Shown here piece after piece: positions 10,223 to 37,088 of a stretch of DNA of 64,000 bases. The number at the start of each line of letters is the position of its first letter. The stretch's first letter is position 1. The stretch comes from Thermocoleostomius sinensis A174 (lineage in GTDB: Bacteria; Cyanobacteriota; Cyanobacteriia; Elainellales; Elainellaceae). The stretch covers positions 496,001 through 560,000 of the forward strand of contig NZ_CP113797.1 of NCBI RefSeq assembly GCF_026802175.1, written 5' to 3'. The notes under the pieces were generated by a model. The model worked only from the letters and a program-made list of their open reading frames with translations. It was not told the origin of the DNA and ran no database searches. The position numbers and the translations under genes were made by a program.

Positions 10223-11632
10223 ATGACCGGATCAAGCCCCCGATTTGCCGTCCTACGTTTAGTTCCTCCACCCGGTGGAGCAGCCCTCTCGCTTGAGTTT
10301 TACCCGCTAATGCCGTCCACGGCCGTATTAATCGGTCGTGATCCCCGCTGTCAAATTATTCTAGACTCACAATTTTATACGGGTGTATCGCGGCAACATG
10401 CTCAGGTCGCCCCGTCATCTACTTCACCGTCAGGGTGGCAAGTTTGTGATCTCAACAGTGCTAACGGCACCTATGTCAACGATCGCCGCATCTACGGGTG
10501 TCATGCCTTGCAATGGGGGGATTGCATCACCCTGGCGCAAGAGGGACCACGATTTATTTTTGAGGTGCAGTCGATCGATGCGGTCGCGTTGTCACCCGAT
10601 GGGGATACCGTTCCAGAGCAAGCGAATTTACCCAGTCCCGCTGTTCTTTCGGGCATTCAACCACCTCACCCCAACCCAGGAACAGTTGCTCAGTCCGATG
10701 CTGTCACGTTCAGCCAACTGTTTCCTATCATTTCTACCGGTCGGGATCTGAAGCGCAAAGCTTATCTCGTTCCCGGCATGATTACGGTAGTGTTCGTGGT
10801 GCTGATGTTTGTCACCAATGGATCGCCTCAATGGTTCAATCCGCTGCTGGCTGCCTATATTGCCGGAGGAGCCTACTATTTTGTCTATCAGCTTTGCGGC
10901 AAACGCAAACCTTGGTGGGTATTGATAAGTTCGGCGCTGATGACAGCATTTTTGTTGCTGAGTCCAGTGTTGCTGATGTTTATTTTTGTGTTTCGAGGAA
11001 TTCTACCGGGCACAATTCCCGATGATCCAGCAACTGTAGGGCTTGGCGTGTTTTTCATCAATATGTTCTTCGGCGCAGGGCTGATGGAGGAGCTGCTCAA
11101 GGCGGTGCCAGTGCTGCTGGCTTATTACATTGGGCGAAAAGTGCGATCGTCTCCCCTGCGTGAACAGATTGGCGTTTGGGAACCGCTGGACGGCATTTTG
11201 TTAGGAACCGCTTCGGCAGTTGGATTTACGCTGCTGGAAACCTTGGGGCAGTATGTCCCGTCTGTTATTAGCGATGTGACGCTACAAGCTGGACCAGAAG
11301 CTGGGCAGTTGGGGCAATTATTGGGGTTGCAACTGTTAATCCCCCGGATTCTTGGCTCTATTTCTGGACATATGGCCTACAGCGGCTACTTCGGCTATTT
11401 CATTGGGTTGAGTGTCTTAAAGCCATCAAAGCGGTGGCAGATTTTGGGAATCGGCTACTTGACCGCAGCAATTCTCCACACTTTGTGGAATACAACCGGA
11501 GCCATTAACATTTTGGTACTAGCGGCCGTGGGAATGATTTCCTATGCGTTCCTGGCCGCCGCTATCCTTAAAGCGAGGGCTTTATCTCCAACCCGACGAG
11601 AGAACTTTGCGACGCGCTTAGACGTGCGCTAG
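10223..11632 (+). CDS. FHA domain fused to PrsW-family intramembrane protease
   Basis: 469 residues. The N-terminal FHA domain (about 30-115) shows IGRDPRCQIIL, VSRQHAQV and NSANGTYVNDRRI, the usual phosphothreonine-binding signature. A linker leads to a membrane region with about eight helices carrying PrsW motifs: MEELLKAVPVLL (Glu289-Glu290), EPLDGILLGTASAVGFTLLE, SGHMAYSGYFGYFIG and a late ILHTLWNTTG. In Bacillus, PrsW cleaves the anti-sigma factor RsiW. Here an FHA module would let the protease read Thr phosphorylation, which is an inference. ATG 10223 is chosen; a TTG 33 bases upstream is also in frame. A terminator hairpin lies just beyond the stop. Confidence 0.85.
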   Translation: MTGSSPRFAVLRLVPPPGGAALSLEFYPLMPSTAVLIGRDPRCQIILDSQFYTGVSRQHAQVAPSSTSPSGWQVCDLNSANGTYVNDRRIYGCHALQWGDCITLAQEGPRFIFEVQSIDAVALSPDGDTVPEQANLPSPAVLSGIQPPHPNPGTVAQSDAVTFSQLFPIISTGRDLKRKAYLVPGMITVVFVVLMFVTNGSPQWFNPLLAAYIAGGAYYFVYQLCGKRKPWWVLISSALMTAFLLLSPVLLMFIFVFRGILPGTIPDDPATVGLGVFFINMFFGAGLMEELLKAVPVLLAYYIGRKVRSSPLREQIGVWEPLDGILLGTASAVGFTLLETLGQYVPSVISDVTLQAGPEAGQLGQLLGLQLLIPRILGSISGHMAYSGYFGYFIGLSVLKPSKRWQILGIGYLTAAILHTLWNTTGAINILVLAAVGMISYAFLAAAILKARALSPTRRENFATRLDVR

Positions 11633-26729: not shown

Positions 26730-26757
26730 TTCCCGACTCCCCCTCCCTACTTCCCAC
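26730..26757. repeat. heptamer tract at the egtD 3' end
   Basis: Four 7-base pyrimidine-rich units (TTCCCGA, CTCCCCC, TCCCTAC, TTCCCAC) overlap the stop region of the leftward egtD gene. Confidence 0.5.
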
Positions 26758-27733
26758 CATCAACACTCAAATAATGCACACTAAATAACTGCTCTGGATC
26801 TGTCCACACTTGATTGGGTTGTAGCCCAGCAGCCCGTGCCAAGTCTCGAAACTCCTCTAGGCTGTACTTGTAGGAATATTCCGTTCGTAGAGTTTCACCC
26901 TTCCAAAATGGAATTTCAACGTCGTCTAAATGCACTACCTGATCGATAAGGCTAACGATGTACATTTCGATGCGTCCCACCGGGTTATAGAAAGCGCGAT
27001 AGGTAAATGCATCCACATTAAAATCTGTACCTAATTCACGGTTCATCCGTGTTAGTAGATTTAGAGCAAAGGCGGCCGAGATTCCTTGACGATCGTCATA
27101 GGCCGGTTCTAGGATGGTTCGATCTTTCTTTAAATCTACTCCGATCAATAATCCACCTCTAGGTCCAAGCAACTGACCCGTCTGCTTCAGAAATTCAATC
27201 GCCGCTTCGGGTTCTAAATTACCGATCGACGAACCTGGGAAAAATCCTACTTTGCGTTTTTTGTCAATCGATGGAATATTCGGAAAATCAATCGGTTGCG
27301 TGTAGTCCGTACAAACGGCAATCGTTTCCAATAATGGGTAAGCTTCCGCTAAATTCAAACAAGATTCCTGCAAGTGTTGCTTGGAAATATCCAGTGCAAT
27401 ATATGTTTGTAAGCGTGGTATCGCGTCTAACAGAATTCGTATCTTTTGGCTACTGCCACTGCCAAACTCAATCAACACACTGTCACTAATCAAGTCTGCT
27501 ATGTCGTGAGCGTAAGTTTGTAAGATTGCCATTTCAGTCCGAGTCAAGTAATACTCATCTAAGGTACAGATTGCATCAAACAATTCTGCTCCCGATTTGT
27601 CATAGAGAAACTTCGGTGAAATGGTTTTCTGTTGTTTCATTAAACCAGTCAATGCTTCCGCTCGAAAATCATCGATTGGTGGGTGTAGATCGTACAGCTT
27701 GACGTGAGCTTTAACGTCAGTTGCTAAGGTCAT
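26747..27733 (-). CDS. egtD: L-histidine N(alpha)-methyltransferase EgtD
   Basis: Trimethylates histidine to hercynine with S-adenosylmethionine, the first step of ergothioneine synthesis. 328 residues. SPKFLYDKSGAELFDAICTL then DEYYLTRTEMAIL is the family N-terminus; VLIEFGSGSSQKIRILLDA is the SAM-binding motif; GFFPGSSIGNLEPEAAIEFL and YSYKYSLEEFRDLARAAGL are also typical. It lies 89 bases downstream of egtB on the same strand, so the pair is probably one operon. The gene's 3' end overlaps a heptamer repeat. Confidence 0.93.
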   Translation of the reverse strand: MTLATDVKAHVKLYDLHPPIDDFRAEALTGLMKQQKTISPKFLYDKSGAELFDAICTLDEYYLTRTEMAILQTYAHDIADLISDSVLIEFGSGSSQKIRILLDAIPRLQTYIALDISKQHLQESCLNLAEAYPLLETIAVCTDYTQPIDFPNIPSIDKKRKVGFFPGSSIGNLEPEAAIEFLKQTGQLLGPRGGLLIGVDLKKDRTILEPAYDDRQGISAAFALNLLTRMNRELGTDFNVDAFTYRAFYNPVGRIEMYIVSLIDQVVHLDDVEIPFWKGETLRTEYSYKYSLEEFRDLARAAGLQPNQVWTDPEQLFSVHYLSVDGGK

Positions 27734-27822
27734 AAAATCAGTCTCCGAATCAAAACAGCAACGTCATCAAAACAGTATCTTCTATTTCCTCTTCTTGTTC
27801 CTTCCTTTTCCCTACTCCAACA

Positions 27823-29109
27823 TCACTGCGCCAAGCGAATTCCGCTGAACTGCCAACGAGCAGACGGCGGAAAGAAATTGCGATAGGTAGAACGAATATG
27901 ATCGGCTGGCGTTGCGCAAGAACCGCCCCGTAGCACCATTTGATTGCACATAAATTTGCCGTTGTATTCTCCAATTGCACCTGATGCTGCCTTAAAGCCG
28001 GGATAGGGCAAGTAGGCGCTTTGCGTCCACTCCCAGACATCGCCATACAATTGATCTGGACGAGTTGATCGAGTGGCGGCGATCGGGTGAAGCTGACTGG
28101 TAGTTACACTGCTAGGGTTTAGTAAATTACCGCGAATAGGAACTTGTGCAGATGCTACTTCCCATTCAGCTTCTGTTGGCAACCGTTTTCCTGCCCATCG
28201 AGCAAACGCATCGGCTTCAAAAAAGCTGACATGACAGACTGGTTCCACTTCGTTGACAGGCTGCATTCCCATCAGCGTCATTGTCCACCACCGACCCTCA
28301 ATTTGTTCCCAATAGAGGGGCGCTTGCCACTGCTCTTTTTGTACCAGCCCCCATCCTTCTGAAAGCCAGTATTCTGCTTTTTCATACCCGCCTGCTTTCA
28401 TAAATTCCAGATATTCACCATTTGTGACCAAGTGAGCCGCAAGGTAATAATCCTGTAAATACACCTGGTGAGTTGGTCCTTCGTTGTCAAAAGCAAACCC
28501 GGTTCCAGCAAAGCCGATCGAGTACAATCCACCCGGATAATCTAACCACTTTTCTGATGTGCAATCGTTCCCTGAATGAGAAGACATCGACGCGATTTCA
28601 CGGTAAGCAGGTCGTAGTGGATTGCAGGCAAGTACATGTTTTAGATCAGTTAGCAACAATTCCTGATGTTGTTGCTCATGATGTAATCCCAACGTGATTA
28701 AGCTTTCTACAGATTCATTCCCAGATTGATCTGCAATCAGTTGTTCCATCGCCGCATCTACATAGTGCCGATATTGGTAAACCTCTTGCACGGTAGGTCG
28801 GGACAACAACCCACGATGCGGTCGAGGATGACGCTGCCCGATCGCTTCATAGTATGAATTAAACAGGAACCCATACTGAGGATGAAAAACGTTGTAATCC
28901 TTGAGATGGGGAAGGAGCAAGAACGTTTCAAAGAACCAGGTAGTATGGGCCAGATGCCACTTGGCTGGGCTAACATCGGGCATCGTTTGAATCACATAAT
29001 CTTCGATCGCCAACGGCTGACAAATCTGCTCACTGAGTTGACGTACCTGCTGATAGTGCTTTGTCAGTGATTGAGGATTAGTTTGTATCTGGGATAGAGA
29101 AGGCTTCAT
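27823..29109 (-). CDS. egtB: ergothioneine synthase-type iron enzyme EgtB
   Basis: Non-haem iron sulfoxide synthase that joins hercynine to a thiol (gamma-glutamylcysteine or cysteine). 428 residues from ATG 29109; a frame extension of 20 codons upstream is unlikely. An N-terminal DinB-like domain carries the iron ligands in KWHLAHTTWFFE and LHHEQQHQELLLTD. A C-terminal FGE-sulfatase domain shows VTNGEYLEFM, RLPTEAEWEVA, YGDVWEWTQS and VLRGGSCATP. Ergothioneine is an antioxidant; with egtD adjacent the core pathway is present. Cyanobacterial genomes often lack egtA and egtC beside the pair, as here. Confidence 0.93.
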   Translation of the reverse strand: MKPSLSQIQTNPQSLTKHYQQVRQLSEQICQPLAIEDYVIQTMPDVSPAKWHLAHTTWFFETFLLLPHLKDYNVFHPQYGFLFNSYYEAIGQRHPRPHRGLLSRPTVQEVYQYRHYVDAAMEQLIADQSGNESVESLITLGLHHEQQHQELLLTDLKHVLACNPLRPAYREIASMSSHSGNDCTSEKWLDYPGGLYSIGFAGTGFAFDNEGPTHQVYLQDYYLAAHLVTNGEYLEFMKAGGYEKAEYWLSEGWGLVQKEQWQAPLYWEQIEGRWWTMTLMGMQPVNEVEPVCHVSFFEADAFARWAGKRLPTEAEWEVASAQVPIRGNLLNPSSVTTSQLHPIAATRSTRPDQLYGDVWEWTQSAYLPYPGFKAASGAIGEYNGKFMCNQMVLRGGSCATPADHIRSTYRNFFPPSARWQFSGIRLAQ

Positions 29110-29409
29110 AATCAAAGTGTGAATGGGAGATAGGAGTTGCCCGAGCGGGTGGTGTGGAGAAATTAACAAAAAGTCAACAAATTTGTTACAAGTGAAGACT
29201 GACTAGATAGAACACAAAAGATAATACAGTGGAACCATGCTGTATCACTACAGCAGGAAATAGATAGCTGTTAAAACCGTCTTAAGGAATAGATAAAAAT
29301 TTTGAATACGGCTCCTAACAACACAGATGATATACACCGTGCCGTACTATCAAGCTCAATGAATGAGGATTTGCTGAGAGGGTGTTTGAAAAGATTTGAG
29401 GTGTCAAAT

Positions 29410-29949
29410 TTATGCCAACCGCCTCACCATAATCCGAATCATGGCAAGGTAGATCAAGGTTTCTGATGTCTCTGGTAATAATTCATAGTCTCTGACCAAC
29501 CGTCTGCATCCCATTAGCCAACCAAAAGTTCGTTCTACCACCCACCTCTTTTTGAGCAAGCTAAAGCCTTTGGTTTGCTCAGGTCGCAGTACAACTTGCA
29601 CAATCCAACGACAAACATCCATCACCCACATCAGAAAAGGGGCGCCATCGAACCCGCCGTCTACCCAAATGGTGATTAAGCGTGAAACCTTTTTCTTCAT
29701 CCGTTTGACTCGTTTGAGGACACGTTTGCCCCCTTCGCGTTCCCCCAGGTTTGCCGCACTCACAAACACCCGCAAAACCAGTCCTAACGTATCCACCGTT
29801 AAAAATCGTTTGCGTCCTGTAATCAGCTTGCCTCCATCAAAGCCAACTTGTTGATGAACTCCTGCTGCACTCTTGATGCTTTGGCTATCGATGATCGCTT
29901 CTGATGGACTAGGATAGCGTTGCGCATCGATGCGAACCCACTGGTGCAA
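29410..29949 (-). CDS. IS5-family transposase, second frame (DDE domain)
   Basis: 179 residues holding the catalytic part: [12 protein letters not shown] (first Asp), [14 protein letters not shown] (second Asp) and [14 protein letters not shown] (Glu), with the usual [20 protein letters not shown] end. The ATG at 29949 is probably not a true start: the frame reads sensibly (IHDQLHQW) just upstream, where it should join the first frame by a shift near 29960-29975. Confidence 0.88.
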
Positions 29950-30209
29950 CTGGTCATGAATGGAATCCAGGTGCCGTCCAATCGCCAGTTGCGGAAGTAC
30001 GTGTACACCGTCTGCCAGGCTGGGAAATCACCAGGTAAAGAACGCCAACGACAGCCTTCAACCAGAACATAGAGCATGGCATTGAGCACCTCCCACAGGT
30101 CAACGCTGCGAGGACGACCACCTGGCTTTGCTGCTGGAATTAATTCACTCAAAACCTCATATTGGGCGCGGGTTAGGTTACTGGGATATGCTTTACTCAT
30201 CTGACTCAC
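29823..30209 (-). CDS. IS5-family transposase, first frame (N-terminal domain)
   Basis: 128 residues. The DUF4096-type N-terminal domain is clear: [40 protein letters not shown] and [20 protein letters not shown], then WRLDGTW. After that the frame departs from transposase sequence. It overlaps the second frame by 127 bases. No A-rich slippery run is visible at the junction, so this may be a mutation rather than programmed frameshifting. Confidence 0.82.
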
Positions 30210-32234: not shown

Positions 32235-35200
32235 ATGTTTGATCAGAAAGTGCCTGTTTTGCGGAAACTTGTGTTGCTAGTTGCACTCGTTTCCCTACCT
32301 GCATCTACCTTGTTATTGCCATCTACAACCATGGCACTCGCTCAGTCCGATCGCGTGTCTCTGGTGCTGTCCGTTGATCGGGTGAATGATGCGAATAGTG
32401 GAGTCGTGCAAATTGATGGCTCTAGCAGCATGACAGCGATTAATCAATGGCTAAAGCAGCGCTATGAAGCTGATTTTCCCGGTATTGAGGTTGAGGTTGC
32501 CGCGCATGGAACGGACGCAGCCATCAAGGCACTATTAGATGGAGAGATTGATTTAGCGGCAATCGGGCGACCGCTGACCCCAGAGGAAAAAGCTGAGGGA
32601 CTGGTCGAAATTCCTATCAGCCGAGAACAGATTGCGATTCTTGTCAGCCAATCCAATCCCTTTAAGGGCAGTTTAACCCTCGATCAACTCAGCAAAATCT
32701 TTCAGGGTGAAATTGTCAATTGGGCAGAGGTCGGTGGCCCCGATGCACCCATTCGGATTATCGATCGTCCCCAAACAAGTGATACACGCCGGGCTTTTGA
32801 AGACTATTTTGAAGACTATGGTGGGTTGAAAGCAGGGGGGTTGAAAGCAGAGCGGACTCCTTCCAGACGCACGCACATGCCTCTAGAAACGGATGACACC
32901 GCTGAGATGATTCAGGCGTTAGGAACTGATGGAATTGGCTATGCCCTTGTTGACCAGGTTCGGGGCGTTGCGGGTGTCCGACTGGTTCCCATTGCTATTT
33001 TGCAAGATGTGTTGCCAGACAGTTCGCTGTACCCCTACACCTTTTCCCGCGGCTATGCCTACAAAACCGAGCTAGCTCCAGCCCTTCAATCGTTTCTGGG
33101 TTTTGCAACGACTAATCCAGGACAAGCAGCGATCGAGACGGCAAAAAACACTGAAGCCACAGCCCTGATAACAGCCTTGGCGGCGGCCACCCTCGCCCAA
33201 ACATTGCCCCAAGCCACTCCAACTACCACGTCTGCCTCCGAAGCGGCGATTGAATCAACGATCGAGTCAACGATTGAATCAACAGACGCAACATCACCTG
33301 AGGTGGAGGATCAGGTTGCAGATAGGATAGCCGCCCAACCGGAAGCCGCAGAACCACTCGCCGATCGCGTTGCTCCATTAGCTGTTTCGTCAAAAGACGA
33401 GGCAACTGAAGTAACCCAGACAACAAATACTCGCTTACAAGCAACTCGGTTAGAACCAACTGCGCAGGATACGGAAGAAACATTAGAAACATCGGCTCCA
33501 TCGCTTCAGCCCCTAGCCGAAGAATCTAAGGTAGTAATTGGTCAAGCCATGGCAGAAACTCCAGCAGTAAGTTCGGCTGAAAAGCCAGCCATGCAGGTGA
33601 TTAAACCGATTCCAACCGGACGAGTACTACCACCGGGATTGAGCCAACCGAATAACCCGCAGGGTTTTGATACGCCTGCTTCGCCGATCGTCGTAGAGAA
33701 GCCCGTACAGCTTGAGACTGATACCCCTGCCACAGGTAGCCCTAAACCAAAGCGGATTGTAGAGCGCTTAGATGATCAAGCCGATCTCGATGAAATTCGA
33801 CCCGCAGAACCGCCAGTCCTACCACCCGTTCAGACTACCACGCCAGACGCGCCGATCGCTCAACCCACTGAGCCAGTAGTAGCACCTACCGCAGAGTCAC
33901 CGCGCCGACGGACTGGGTGGTGGTTGCTGTTACCGCTAACGCTGGTTGTGTTATTGATTCGATGGCTGCAAGGTAAAAATAAACCCGCTGCTCCCGCCGC
34001 TCCGAATCCCACCCATCCCCCATCTCCGCCTCGACCTACCGCTTCAGAGGTTCCAGCCGAGGTTCCAGAGATTGTCACTGCCGAATCTTCTGCTACAACG
34101 ATCGCCGAAGCTCCGGTAGAAGTGCCGATAGCCCCCCCTGCGGAAGTGGTGTCTTCGTCAGCAGAAGTGCCCCTAGCGGAACCACCAGTCGCAGCCCCCC
34201 AATCAGATGCCGCGATGATCGACGCAACTATGGATGCAGCCGACGCGACGGTAGAAACTCCTGGCGTCGAAACACCTGAAACGCTACCGTCGGAACCACT
34301 GGTGGTCGAAATGCCGCTAGAAGCTCCAGCCGTGCCTCTGCCAGACCCAATCGTGTCAGATGTTGCAGCGGCAGACTCCATAGACGCAGAATTTATTGAA
34401 GCCGAAATCATAGAACCGCAACCCCCAGTTTCGGCAACATCGGATGAAGCGATTGAATCGGTGACGGATACGAAACCGGACACTGGGACTGGCTTTTCTG
34501 CGCCTGACCCTTCTGCCGAAACCTTCGAGCAACTCGCAGATCCTTCAATTCGACAGGTGGAACCGATCGTCCTGGAAGCTCCCATCGTTGGCAGGGCTGA
34601 CACAAACCCTACTGTCAATGCACAGCCAATTCTCAGTTCATCGATTGCCGATACCACCGCAGACAGCGTGATGACGCCTGTACCGCGTGATGACTCGGAA
34701 CCGACAGTGGAAACGTTTAAGCGCACATTTCAAGATTACTTGCGTAGCTATTGTGGACAATCTTTAGAAACGGCAACGGTGCAAGATTGTTACATGGCTT
34801 TGTCCTATGTTGTGCGCGATCGGATGATGAAGCTCAATCGCCCAGAGGTTTACTTGCAGCAGCCAGATGTCCGGATTGTGGGTGAGATTGCCGCTGAATT
34901 TATGCCCGGTCCACATTTGGCCAACAATTTGTTGAACTTGGGCTATTTAGAACCAGTGCAGCAGGCAATGCGCGAGTTGAACATTGACCTGAATGCGCTA
35001 TGTGAACAGGAAGAAGAGCCAGGACTCGGTAAAGGCGGACTTGGGCGCTTGATGGTGTGCTATCTCGATTCGCTCTCTACTGCCAATGTTCCGGCGATCG
35101 GCTATGGCATTCGCTATGAGTTCGGTATTTTTGATCAAGTCATTCAAGACGGTTGGCAAGTCGAAGTTCCCGATAGTTGGTTACGCAACGGCAACCCGTG

Positions 35201-37088
35201 GGAGCTAGAAGTTCCCGAGGGCATGGTTGAGGTCAAGTTTGGGGGAGAAACCCAAGCATATCTTGATGAGCACGGGCAATATCGGGTGCGATGGATTCCG
35301 AACGAGGTGATCACAGGCATTCCCTATGATACACCCATTCCGGGCTATCGCTCCTACACCATCAATCCTCTGCGACTATGGAAAGCGGATTCTGGTGATC
35401 TTTGCAAAGTGCTCTACCCGGTAGATGTGGAAGTTCAAGGCAAAGCTTTACGTTTAAAGCAGCAATTCTTCCTAGTTTCTTGTGCGCTACAGGATGTGTT
35501 GCGACTGCATCGACTCGGAGGCGGCTCTTTTGACACCTTGCATCAGCGGTTTGCGCTACAACTCAATGATACTGATCCAACACTGGCGGTGGCGGAATTA
35601 ATGCGCTTGCTGGTAGATGAAGGTGGATTGGCATGGGATATTGCTTGGGATGTGACTCAGAAGACGTTAGCCTATACAAATCACAGCCTCATGCCAGAAA
35701 CCTTGGACGATCGATGGACTGTGAAGGTCTTTGCGCATTTTCTTCCTCGACATTTGGAAATTATCTTTGAAATCAATCGTCGTTTCTTAGATGAAGTACG
35801 CGCCAAGTATCCGGATGATCTCGATCGCATTCAGCGAGTATCACTTATTGATGAAACTGGAGAGCGCTATATTCGCACCACTTATCTTGCCTGTGTTGGC
35901 AGCCATGCAATTAACGGAGTATCTAAGCTACATACTCAGCTTCTGGAGCAAACGATTCTACACGACTTCTACGATCTCTACCCAGAAAAATTCAGCAACA
36001 AGACAAATGGTGTGACGCCGCGCCGATTTCTGCAATTAATTAATCCACGATTGGCTTATCTAATCACTAGCGAAATTGGCGACAATTGGATTACCGATCT
36101 AGATGAATTGCAAAAGCTAGAAGGATTTGTAGATGATCCTCAGTTTCGCAATGAGTGGCAGCAGGTTAAACACGCTTGTAAATCTGATTTAGCAGATTAT
36201 ATTCAGCAGCAAACCGGAATTCAAGTCGATCCAATGTCACTGTTTGATGTACACACGATGCGGCTGCATGAATACATGCGAAAGCACTTGCAAGTGCTGC
36301 ACATTCTGACGCTGTACAATCGGATTAGAGCAAATCCAGAGCTTGACCTGACACCTCGCACCTTCATCTTTGCGGGCAAAGCTGCTCCCGATTATTTCAC
36401 GGCAAAGTTGATTATTAAACTAATTCATGCGGTTGCCGATTTGGTGAATCATGATCCAGATGTTCGCGATCGACTGAAGGTTGTCTTCTTGCCAGACTAT
36501 AATCTCAAAACAGCCCAACGCATTTACCCGGCGGCTGATCTGGCAGAATACATTTCCACCGCAGGCACAGAAGCTTGCAGTACTGGTAATATGATATTTG
36601 CCATGAATGGAGCCGTTATTATTGGAACGCTGGATGGCTCCAACATTGAACTTCGGGATGTAGTTGGTGCAGAGAACTTCTTCTGGTTTGGTTTAACCCT
36701 CCAAGAAGCAGCCAATCTGCGACATCAGGGATATACCCCGATCGACTACTATCACACGAACCCTGACCTCAACGCTGCGATTGACCTGATTGCCTCGGGT
36801 GCCCTTGCTAATGGGGACACTGACCTCTTCCAACCGCTCGTCAATCTGCTGTTATACAGCGATGAATACCTGTTGCTAGCAGATTATCAGTCCTACATCG
36901 ACTGCCAAACGCGAGTGAGTCGGATCTATCAAACTCCGGAGCACTGGTTGCGACGGTCGATTCTCAATACCGCGCGAATTGGACCTTTTTCGTCCGATCG
37001 AGCCGTTCGAGAATATTGCCAGACGATTTGGAATATTCAACCCATCTCGAAAAAGTTGCGGGAATATACAAAACCCCAAGCTGGCTGA
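32235..37088 (+). CDS. PstS-like binding domain - TM - glycogen phosphorylase-like pseudoenzyme fusion
   Basis: 1617 residues in one frame. A signal peptide ends near residue 37 (ALAQSD). A PBP domain (about 55-290) has VQIDGSSSMTAINQWLKQRY, AAIGRPLTPEEKAEG and RPQTSDTRRAF, like phosphate-binding PstS. One TM helix (about 560-578) and a linker rich in Ala, Pro, Glu and Thr (to about 820) lead to a phosphorylase fold (about 820-1605): GKGGLGRLMVCYLDS, GIRYEFGIFDQVI, TNHSLMPETL, KTNGVTPRRF, FIFAGKAAPDYF. Catalytic residues are lost: the PLP lysine is Ile1454 (EACSTGNMIFAMNG), the phosphate-site lysines are Met1342 and Met1348, and the active-site His of NDTHP is Asp1114. If the signal peptide works, the PBP is outside and the phosphorylase fold inside the cell. 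Confidence 0.88.
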   Translation: MFDQKVPVLRKLVLLVALVSLPASTLLLPSTTMALAQSDRVSLVLSVDRVNDANSGVVQIDGSSSMTAINQWLKQRYEADFPGIEVEVAAHGTDAAIKALLDGEIDLAAIGRPLTPEEKAEGLVEIPISREQIAILVSQSNPFKGSLTLDQLSKIFQGEIVNWAEVGGPDAPIRIIDRPQTSDTRRAFEDYFEDYGGLKAGGLKAERTPSRRTHMPLETDDTAEMIQALGTDGIGYALVDQVRGVAGVRLVPIAILQDVLPDSSLYPYTFSRGYAYKTELAPALQSFLGFATTNPGQAAIETAKNTEATALITALAAATLAQTLPQATPTTTSASEAAIESTIESTIESTDATSPEVEDQVADRIAAQPEAAEPLADRVAPLAVSSKDEATEVTQTTNTRLQATRLEPTAQDTEETLETSAPSLQPLAEESKVVIGQAMAETPAVSSAEKPAMQVIKPIPTGRVLPPGLSQPNNPQGFDTPASPIVVEKPVQLETDTPATGSPKPKRIVERLDDQADLDEIRPAEPPVLPPVQTTTPDAPIAQPTEPVVAPTAESPRRRTGWWLLLPLTLVVLLIRWLQGKNKPAAPAAPNPTHPPSPPRPTASEVPAEVPEIVTAESSATTIAEAPVEVPIAPPAEVVSSSAEVPLAEPPVAAPQSDAAMIDATMDAADATVETPGVETPETLPSEPLVVEMPLEAPAVPLPDPIVSDVAAADSIDAEFIEAEIIEPQPPVSATSDEAIESVTDTKPDTGTGFSAPDPSAETFEQLADPSIRQVEPIVLEAPIVGRADTNPTVNAQPILSSSIADTTADSVMTPVPRDDSEPTVETFKRTFQDYLRSYCGQSLETATVQDCYMALSYVVRDRMMKLNRPEVYLQQPDVRIVGEIAAEFMPGPHLANNLLNLGYLEPVQQAMRELNIDLNALCEQEEEPGLGKGGLGRLMVCYLDSLSTANVPAIGYGIRYEFGIFDQVIQDGWQVEVPDSWLRNGNPWELEVPEGMVEVKFGGETQAYLDEHGQYRVRWIPNEVITGIPYDTPIPGYRSYTINPLRLWKADSGDLCKVLYPVDVEVQGKALRLKQQFFLVSCALQDVLRLHRLGGGSFDTLHQRFALQLNDTDPTLAVAELMRLLVDEGGLAWDIAWDVTQKTLAYTNHSLMPETLDDRWTVKVFAHFLPRHLEIIFEINRRFLDEVRAKYPDDLDRIQRVSLIDETGERYIRTTYLACVGSHAINGVSKLHTQLLEQTILHDFYDLYPEKFSNKTNGVTPRRFLQLINPRLAYLITSEIGDNWITDLDELQKLEGFVDDPQFRNEWQQVKHACKSDLADYIQQQTGIQVDPMSLFDVHTMRLHEYMRKHLQVLHILTLYNRIRANPELDLTPRTFIFAGKAAPDYFTAKLIIKLIHAVADLVNHDPDVRDRLKVVFLPDYNLKTAQRIYPAADLAEYISTAGTEACSTGNMIFAMNGAVIIGTLDGSNIELRDVVGAENFFWFGLTLQEAANLRHQGYTPIDYYHTNPDLNAAIDLIASGALANGDTDLFQPLVNLLLYSDEYLLLADYQSYIDCQTRVSRIYQTPEHWLRRSILNTARIGPFSSDRAVREYCQTIWNIQPISKKLREYTKPQAG

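Follow-up and report, generated by a model that had tools for sequence, protein, structure and literature searches.

A binding-protein domain joined through one transmembrane helix to a degenerate glycogen phosphorylase in Thermocoleostomius sinensis and other cyanobacteria

The locus described here raises the question of what a periplasmic binding protein (PBP) and a glycogen phosphorylase (GP) can do together in a single chain. We have studied it in Thermocoleostomius sinensis A174, in a stretch of 64,000 nt which we call the window (contig NZ_CP113797.1, positions 496,001–560,000).

Architecture of the fusion protein

The fusion is encoded by an open reading frame of 1617 codons in positions 32,235–37,088 of the forward strand, with no internal stop. 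The original prediction had described a signal peptide, a PstS-like domain, a transmembrane (TM) helix, a linker and a full phosphorylase, and the domain models agree with it: Pfam PBP_like_2 matches residues 54–293 (E 1.4e-33), so that the N-terminal domain is indeed PBP-like; Pfam Phosphorylase gives a total of 955 bits (E 2.8e-287) and TIGR02093 has one continuous match in residues 825–1601 (1003 bits). The linker rich in Ala, Pro and Glu, predicted at about 240 residues, measures about 248 (16% Pro, 15% Ala, 10% Glu). A further linker, which was absent from that description, lies between the PBP and the TM helix (Table 1).

The TM helix is the hydrophobicity peak between the PBP and the GP, and a hydrophobic segment separates both domains in every fusion which is complete across that stretch. 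Basic residues are more frequent after the helix than before it, which fits a cytosolic GP; we infer that the PBP is outside and the GP in the cytosol. A long antisense reading frame covers the linker (33,860–34,726, reverse strand); it is probably an effect of composition.

The genome is one closed contig of 5.81 Mb and the same domain order is found in genomes which have been assembled separately. The join is therefore real, due neither to chance nor to an artefact of assembly, which is ruled out.

Table 1. Features of the fusion gene and of the two genes which follow it, in window positions
Feature	Residues	Position	Strand	Basis or remark
Signal peptide of the fusion	1–36	32235..32342	+	Direct reading: hydrophobic core, AxA motif; likely cut after ALA
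PstS-like PBP domain	54–300	32394..33134	+	Pfam PBP_like_2; phmmer to Sll0540
Extracytoplasmic linker 1	about 259 residues	33135..33911	+	Length in relatives 39–259
Single TM helix	560–578	33912..33968	+	Hydropathy
Linker 2, Ala/Pro/Glu-rich	about 248 residues	33969..34709	+	
Pseudo-glycogen phosphorylase domain (predicted)	826–1617	34710..37088	+	Alignment: catalytic residues and tower segment missing
P3, orphan beta protein	131 aa	37155..37550	+	No Pfam family; AF2 pLDDT 90
Second PBP-TM protein: signal peptide, PBP, TM, three DUF4912, C-terminal P3 domain	976 aa	37714..40644	+	
Terminator-like stem-loop		40713..40740	+	Consensus match only; after the third gene

Residues of the phosphorylase and of the binding domain

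We have compared 15 fusion GP domains with 41 active cyanobacterial GPs, which include the two intact paralogues of the genome of the window. Residues are given in rabbit GP numbering, checked against a PDB alignment. The fusion domains are about 55–63% identical to the active GPs over most of their length, and they fully keep 139 of the 284 columns which are invariant in the active enzymes.

The losses concern catalysis. The lysine which binds pyridoxal phosphate (PLP) as a Schiff base, K680, is present in all 41 active GPs and is replaced by I, M or A in all 15 fusions (Ile1454 in the window). In every fusion H341 is aligned with D (Asp1114), K568 is missing (Met1342) and N133 is K or R (Lys933), while the three residues are kept in the 41 active GPs. 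K568 belongs to the phosphate site together with R569 and K574. In the window K574 is also replaced (Met1348); R569, which the 41 active GPs keep, is retained there and lost in 13 of the 15 fusions. A deletion is common to all fusions: the motifs RLW and VLYP are separated by 33 residues in active GPs and by 9–10 in the fusions. The 23–24 residues removed correspond approximately to rabbit residues 248–273, a segment which comprises the 250s loop and the greater part of the tower helix and is kept in 41/41 active GPs; in the window the deletion is found near residue 1053. The tower helix packs between the subunits of GP dimers.

The sugar site has a different fate: in a set of residues chosen post hoc, E88, L136, D339, H377, N484, E672 and A673 are retained in 15/15 fusions. 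The exceptions are S674 and G675, which vary, N284, which is lost, and T378, which is Ser in all fusions.

Since the PLP lysine and the phosphate-site lysine are missing in every fusion, phosphorolysis is not expected: judging from its residues, the domain is a pseudoenzyme. The original prediction had an inner domain which uses inorganic phosphate, and this does not hold, as K680 and K568 are lost throughout. It implied an active membrane-bound phosphorylase which would tie the breakdown of glycogen to phosphate outside the cell. The full-length GT35 fold would agree with such an enzyme, but the missing catalytic residues (K680, K568, H341) lead us to reject it and the altered phosphate loop of the PBP, described below, also speaks against it; we consider it highly improbable. 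The domain has in common with the glycogen or alpha-glucan phosphorylases (GT35, PF00343, TIGR02093) the whole fold and most sugar-site residues; it differs from them by the absence of the PLP lysine, the phosphate site and the tower segment, and by its attachment to the membrane behind a PBP.

Two more degenerate GPs are found in the same genome. One is also of a membrane type (L005/L050, G000:C1:31109-35992, reading frame 3413–6511 of L050), with an N-terminal TM helix, an acidic linker and a GP fold without PLP lysine. The other one is a standalone protein of 803 aa, also without this lysine (L004/L051, G000:C1:95910-100487).

The best solved relative of the fusion PBP is Synechocystis Sll0540 (PDB 9l8j, E 1.3e-49 in phmmer). 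The fold and most anion-site motifs are common to Sll0540 and other PstS-type proteins (PDB 4gd5, PBP_like_2), including the Arg, Ser and Thr of the phosphate loop RxxxSGT. These are free transporter subunits, whereas the tethered PBPs are followed by a TM helix and a cytosolic domain, and have Asp or Glu in place of the Gly of the loop: it reads [R/H]xxxS[D/E]T in 48/48 of them, with M for T in one case. The loop of the fusion of the window is SDT. Gly occupies this place in Sll0540 and PstS 4gd5, and likewise in four standalone PBPs from the genome of the window.

The SGT loop of PstS binds phosphate. An acidic side chain in a loop of this type makes it doubtful, on sequence grounds, that plain phosphate is bound, and with the loop altered to SDT or SET in all 48 tethered members phosphate sensing is unproven. 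No Pho-box was found near the fusion gene; seven degenerate matches in the window are not clearly above chance. Among the 20 longer reading frames of the window, which we scanned, none could be recognised as a pst gene, either for a permease or for an ATPase. A transmembrane link between external phosphate, or another anion, and glycogen metabolism had been proposed for this protein: the loop and the negative searches for a Pho-box and for pst genes weaken its phosphate half, while its glycogen half is supported, as discussed in the next section. The PBP may bind a different anion or ligand.

Distribution, partner genes and neighbourhoods

Among 40 relatives searched, seven genomes from the family of the window, besides its own, encode this chain. 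In an evenly drawn sample of 390 cyanobacterial genomes, fusion-type phosphorylases are present in 16, the one of the window included: 12 belong to its family and four to a second family. A single chain with PBP, TM helix, linker and dead GP is found in several genera of cyanobacteria. Intact fusions are found in Pegethrix bostrychoides GSE-TBD4-15B (L111), Leptolyngbya sp. FACHB-8 (L128), the filamentous cyanobacterium LEGE 07170 (L129), Synechococcales cyanobacterium C42_A2020_086 (L082) and cyanobacteria J069 (L117) and RM1_2_2 (L121). Two others, in G262 and G309, are cut by contig ends.

A quick tree groups the 15 fusion GP domains in a single clade (SH-aLRT 98), to which neither the active GPs nor five further degenerate GPs belong. 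Three pairs of relatives give dN/dS values of 0.098, 0.087 and 0.149 for the GP domain; two of the same pairs give similar values for the PBP, 0.078 and 0.103, and the linker evolves faster than both domains. Between the window and its nearest relative dS is saturated and gives no ratio. Judged by these values of about 0.09–0.15, the fusion family is under purifying selection, and the low values of the GP indicate that the dead domain is maintained in the clade.

Some copies are damaged. The fusion of G239 is broken by a stop, those of G108 and G279 have internal stops and G108 also has a shortened PBP (L141, 7256–11437, for G239 and L135, 6902–10561, for G108). The stop in G239 and the shortened PBP in G108 suggest a recent loss of the fusion in some lineages. 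One might take these three cases to mean that the gene is a decaying or chimeric sequence without function, or an artefact, but this is scarcely credible given a closed genome, a domain order conserved in many genomes and a dN/dS near 0.1 in relatives.

The fusion gene is the first of a cassette: it is followed by P3 and by a second PBP-TM protein which carries DUF4912 and P3 domains. The stem-loop after the third gene is a possible end of the cassette, by its match to a consensus. The same order is repeated in G013, G007, G024 and G174, with variations elsewhere. The pair of P3 and PBP-DUF4912 genes is far more widespread than the fusion: we have found 53 loci with P3 (L082–L134), most of them with the pair, and P3 domains occur alone, doubled or at the C-terminus of PBP-DUF4912 proteins. 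The genome of the window has four proteins with a PBP and a TM helix, namely the fusion and three which carry DUF4912. Two of these three are encoded outside the window, in L160 (7964–11881) and L159 (8132–11020). In L162 (7059–8669) a DUF4912 domain is fused to a Rho_N domain.

The cassette protein and its homologues share with the fusion the signal peptide, a PBP with the SDT loop, the TM helix and the cassette; they end in DUF4912 repeats and P3, whereas the fusion ends in a phosphorylase. The AF2 models show a confident beta fold for P3, for which Foldseek finds no match under 1e-3 and VIA-align reaches a Z of 6.5 at best, with beta folds which are unrelated. For DUF4912 the model is a sandwich of the FN3 type (Foldseek 1.1e-4, Z 9.7), a resemblance from which no function can be read.

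This wider family, with its FN3-like repeats and mostly without a phosphorylase neighbour, is what favours the main alternative to the reading which we prefer below: a scaffold which binds no sugar, in which the GP fold serves as a platform for protein interactions when PBP-TM proteins and P3 are assembled in the cell envelope or the thylakoids. The invariant sugar-site residues argue against a pure scaffold, as do the carbohydrate neighbours found in two lineages, and we consider it unlikely.

These neighbours are clearest in Leptolyngbya sp. FACHB-8 (L045), where a single strand contains phosphoketolase, a D-2-hydroxyacid (lactate-type) dehydrogenase, the fusion, P3 and the second PBP protein, and beyond them glucose-6-phosphate isomerase, an active GlgP and a phosphoglycerate-mutase-like gene. 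The phosphoketolase–dehydrogenase–fusion part is repeated in L046, of the same genus. In the second family (L139) the genes after the fusion encode transaldolase and acetate kinase; this transaldolase, which adjoins the fusion (10287–11468), has a C-terminal EF hand. Such genes belong to dark or fermentative sugar breakdown. The GP fold, and the presence in these neighbourhoods of genes for phosphoketolase, lactate dehydrogenase, glucose-6-phosphate isomerase, an active GlgP, transaldolase and acetate kinase, support a link of the fusion with glycogen metabolism, as originally predicted.

The linkage is seen in these two lineages only; the fusion of the window has no carbohydrate-catabolism neighbours among the 20 reading frames scanned, and the phosphoketolase of this genome is located elsewhere. 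Upstream of the TetR gene which adjoins the fusion there is an insertion sequence with a two-frame DDE transposase (29,410–30,209). In positions 26,747–29,169 we find side by side a histidine-specific methyltransferase and a DinB/FGE-sulfatase gene, a pair of the ergothioneine type (EgtD/EgtB).

The neighbourhood of L045, with an active GlgP two genes beyond the cassette, and the two intact GPs in the genome of the window could also mean that the dead GP regulates an active one directly, for instance as a heterodimer or by competition for glycogen ends, under the control of the external PBP. The tower segment is deleted in 15/15 fusions, which argues against a canonical GP heterodimer, and such regulation seems rather improbable.

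A possible role at the membrane

The reading which we prefer, at roughly even chances, is that the fusion is a membrane-anchored, non-catalytic receptor or tether for alpha-glucans and not an enzyme. An extracytoplasmic PBP would be followed by a single TM helix and then, on the cytosolic side, by a long flexible linker and a dead GP fold which probably still binds alpha-glucan chains. The GP fold would keep glycogen ends at the membrane, or enzymes which degrade glycogen, and this tethering might be modulated when the outside PBP binds a ligand or an envelope partner. The fusion would work with the P3 and PBP-TM-DUF4912 proteins encoded beside it.

Several observations favour such a tether: its recurrence in two families as a single clade apart from the active GPs; the loss of catalytic residues and tower together with seven sugar-site residues kept in 15/15 fusions; a dN/dS of the GP like that of the PBP, with faster linkers; the conserved cassette order; the neighbourhoods of L045 and L139 and the basic residues after the TM helix. 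Against it count the exceptions in the sugar site and a neighbourhood link found in two lineages and not in the window. The second cassette protein has no phosphorylase, so that glycogen may not be what the cassette genes have in common.

Receptors with a PBP domain and a TM helix exist, such as histidine kinases which carry a periplasmic binding domain. They have in common with the fusion a binding domain outside, a single TM helix and a candidate effector inside; in the fusion the latter is an inactive phosphorylase, instead of a kinase, cyclase or chemoreceptor domain. Pseudoenzymes are also found in plant starch metabolism, such as BAM4 and SS5. Like these, the fusion contains a glucan-enzyme homologue which is catalytically dead yet maintained by selection; the papers searched give no phosphorylase as an example of such a pseudoenzyme, and none which is tied to a receptor-like outside domain. 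The open-access papers searched describe neither this fusion architecture, in agreement with the statement in the original prediction that no protein with this domain order had been described, nor a function for DUF4912, nor a pseudo-phosphorylase, nor any membrane-bound or catalytically dead glycogen phosphorylase. The parts come from known families, while their combination and the inactive state appear to be new.

It is a tentative possibility that these proteins represent a new class of bacterial TM receptors, in which a dead GP serves as glucan sensor and lets an outside binding domain control the glycogen store, with P3 and DUF4912 proteins as dedicated partners. The fusion also draws attention to uncharacterised PBP-TM proteins with DUF4912 and P3, a family which extends across filamentous cyanobacteria. 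A conserved receptor-like protein with a dead glucan enzyme behind an outside binding domain would connect the environment of cyanobacteria directly with their carbon store, and would allow the conversion of an enzyme into a sensor to be put to the test.
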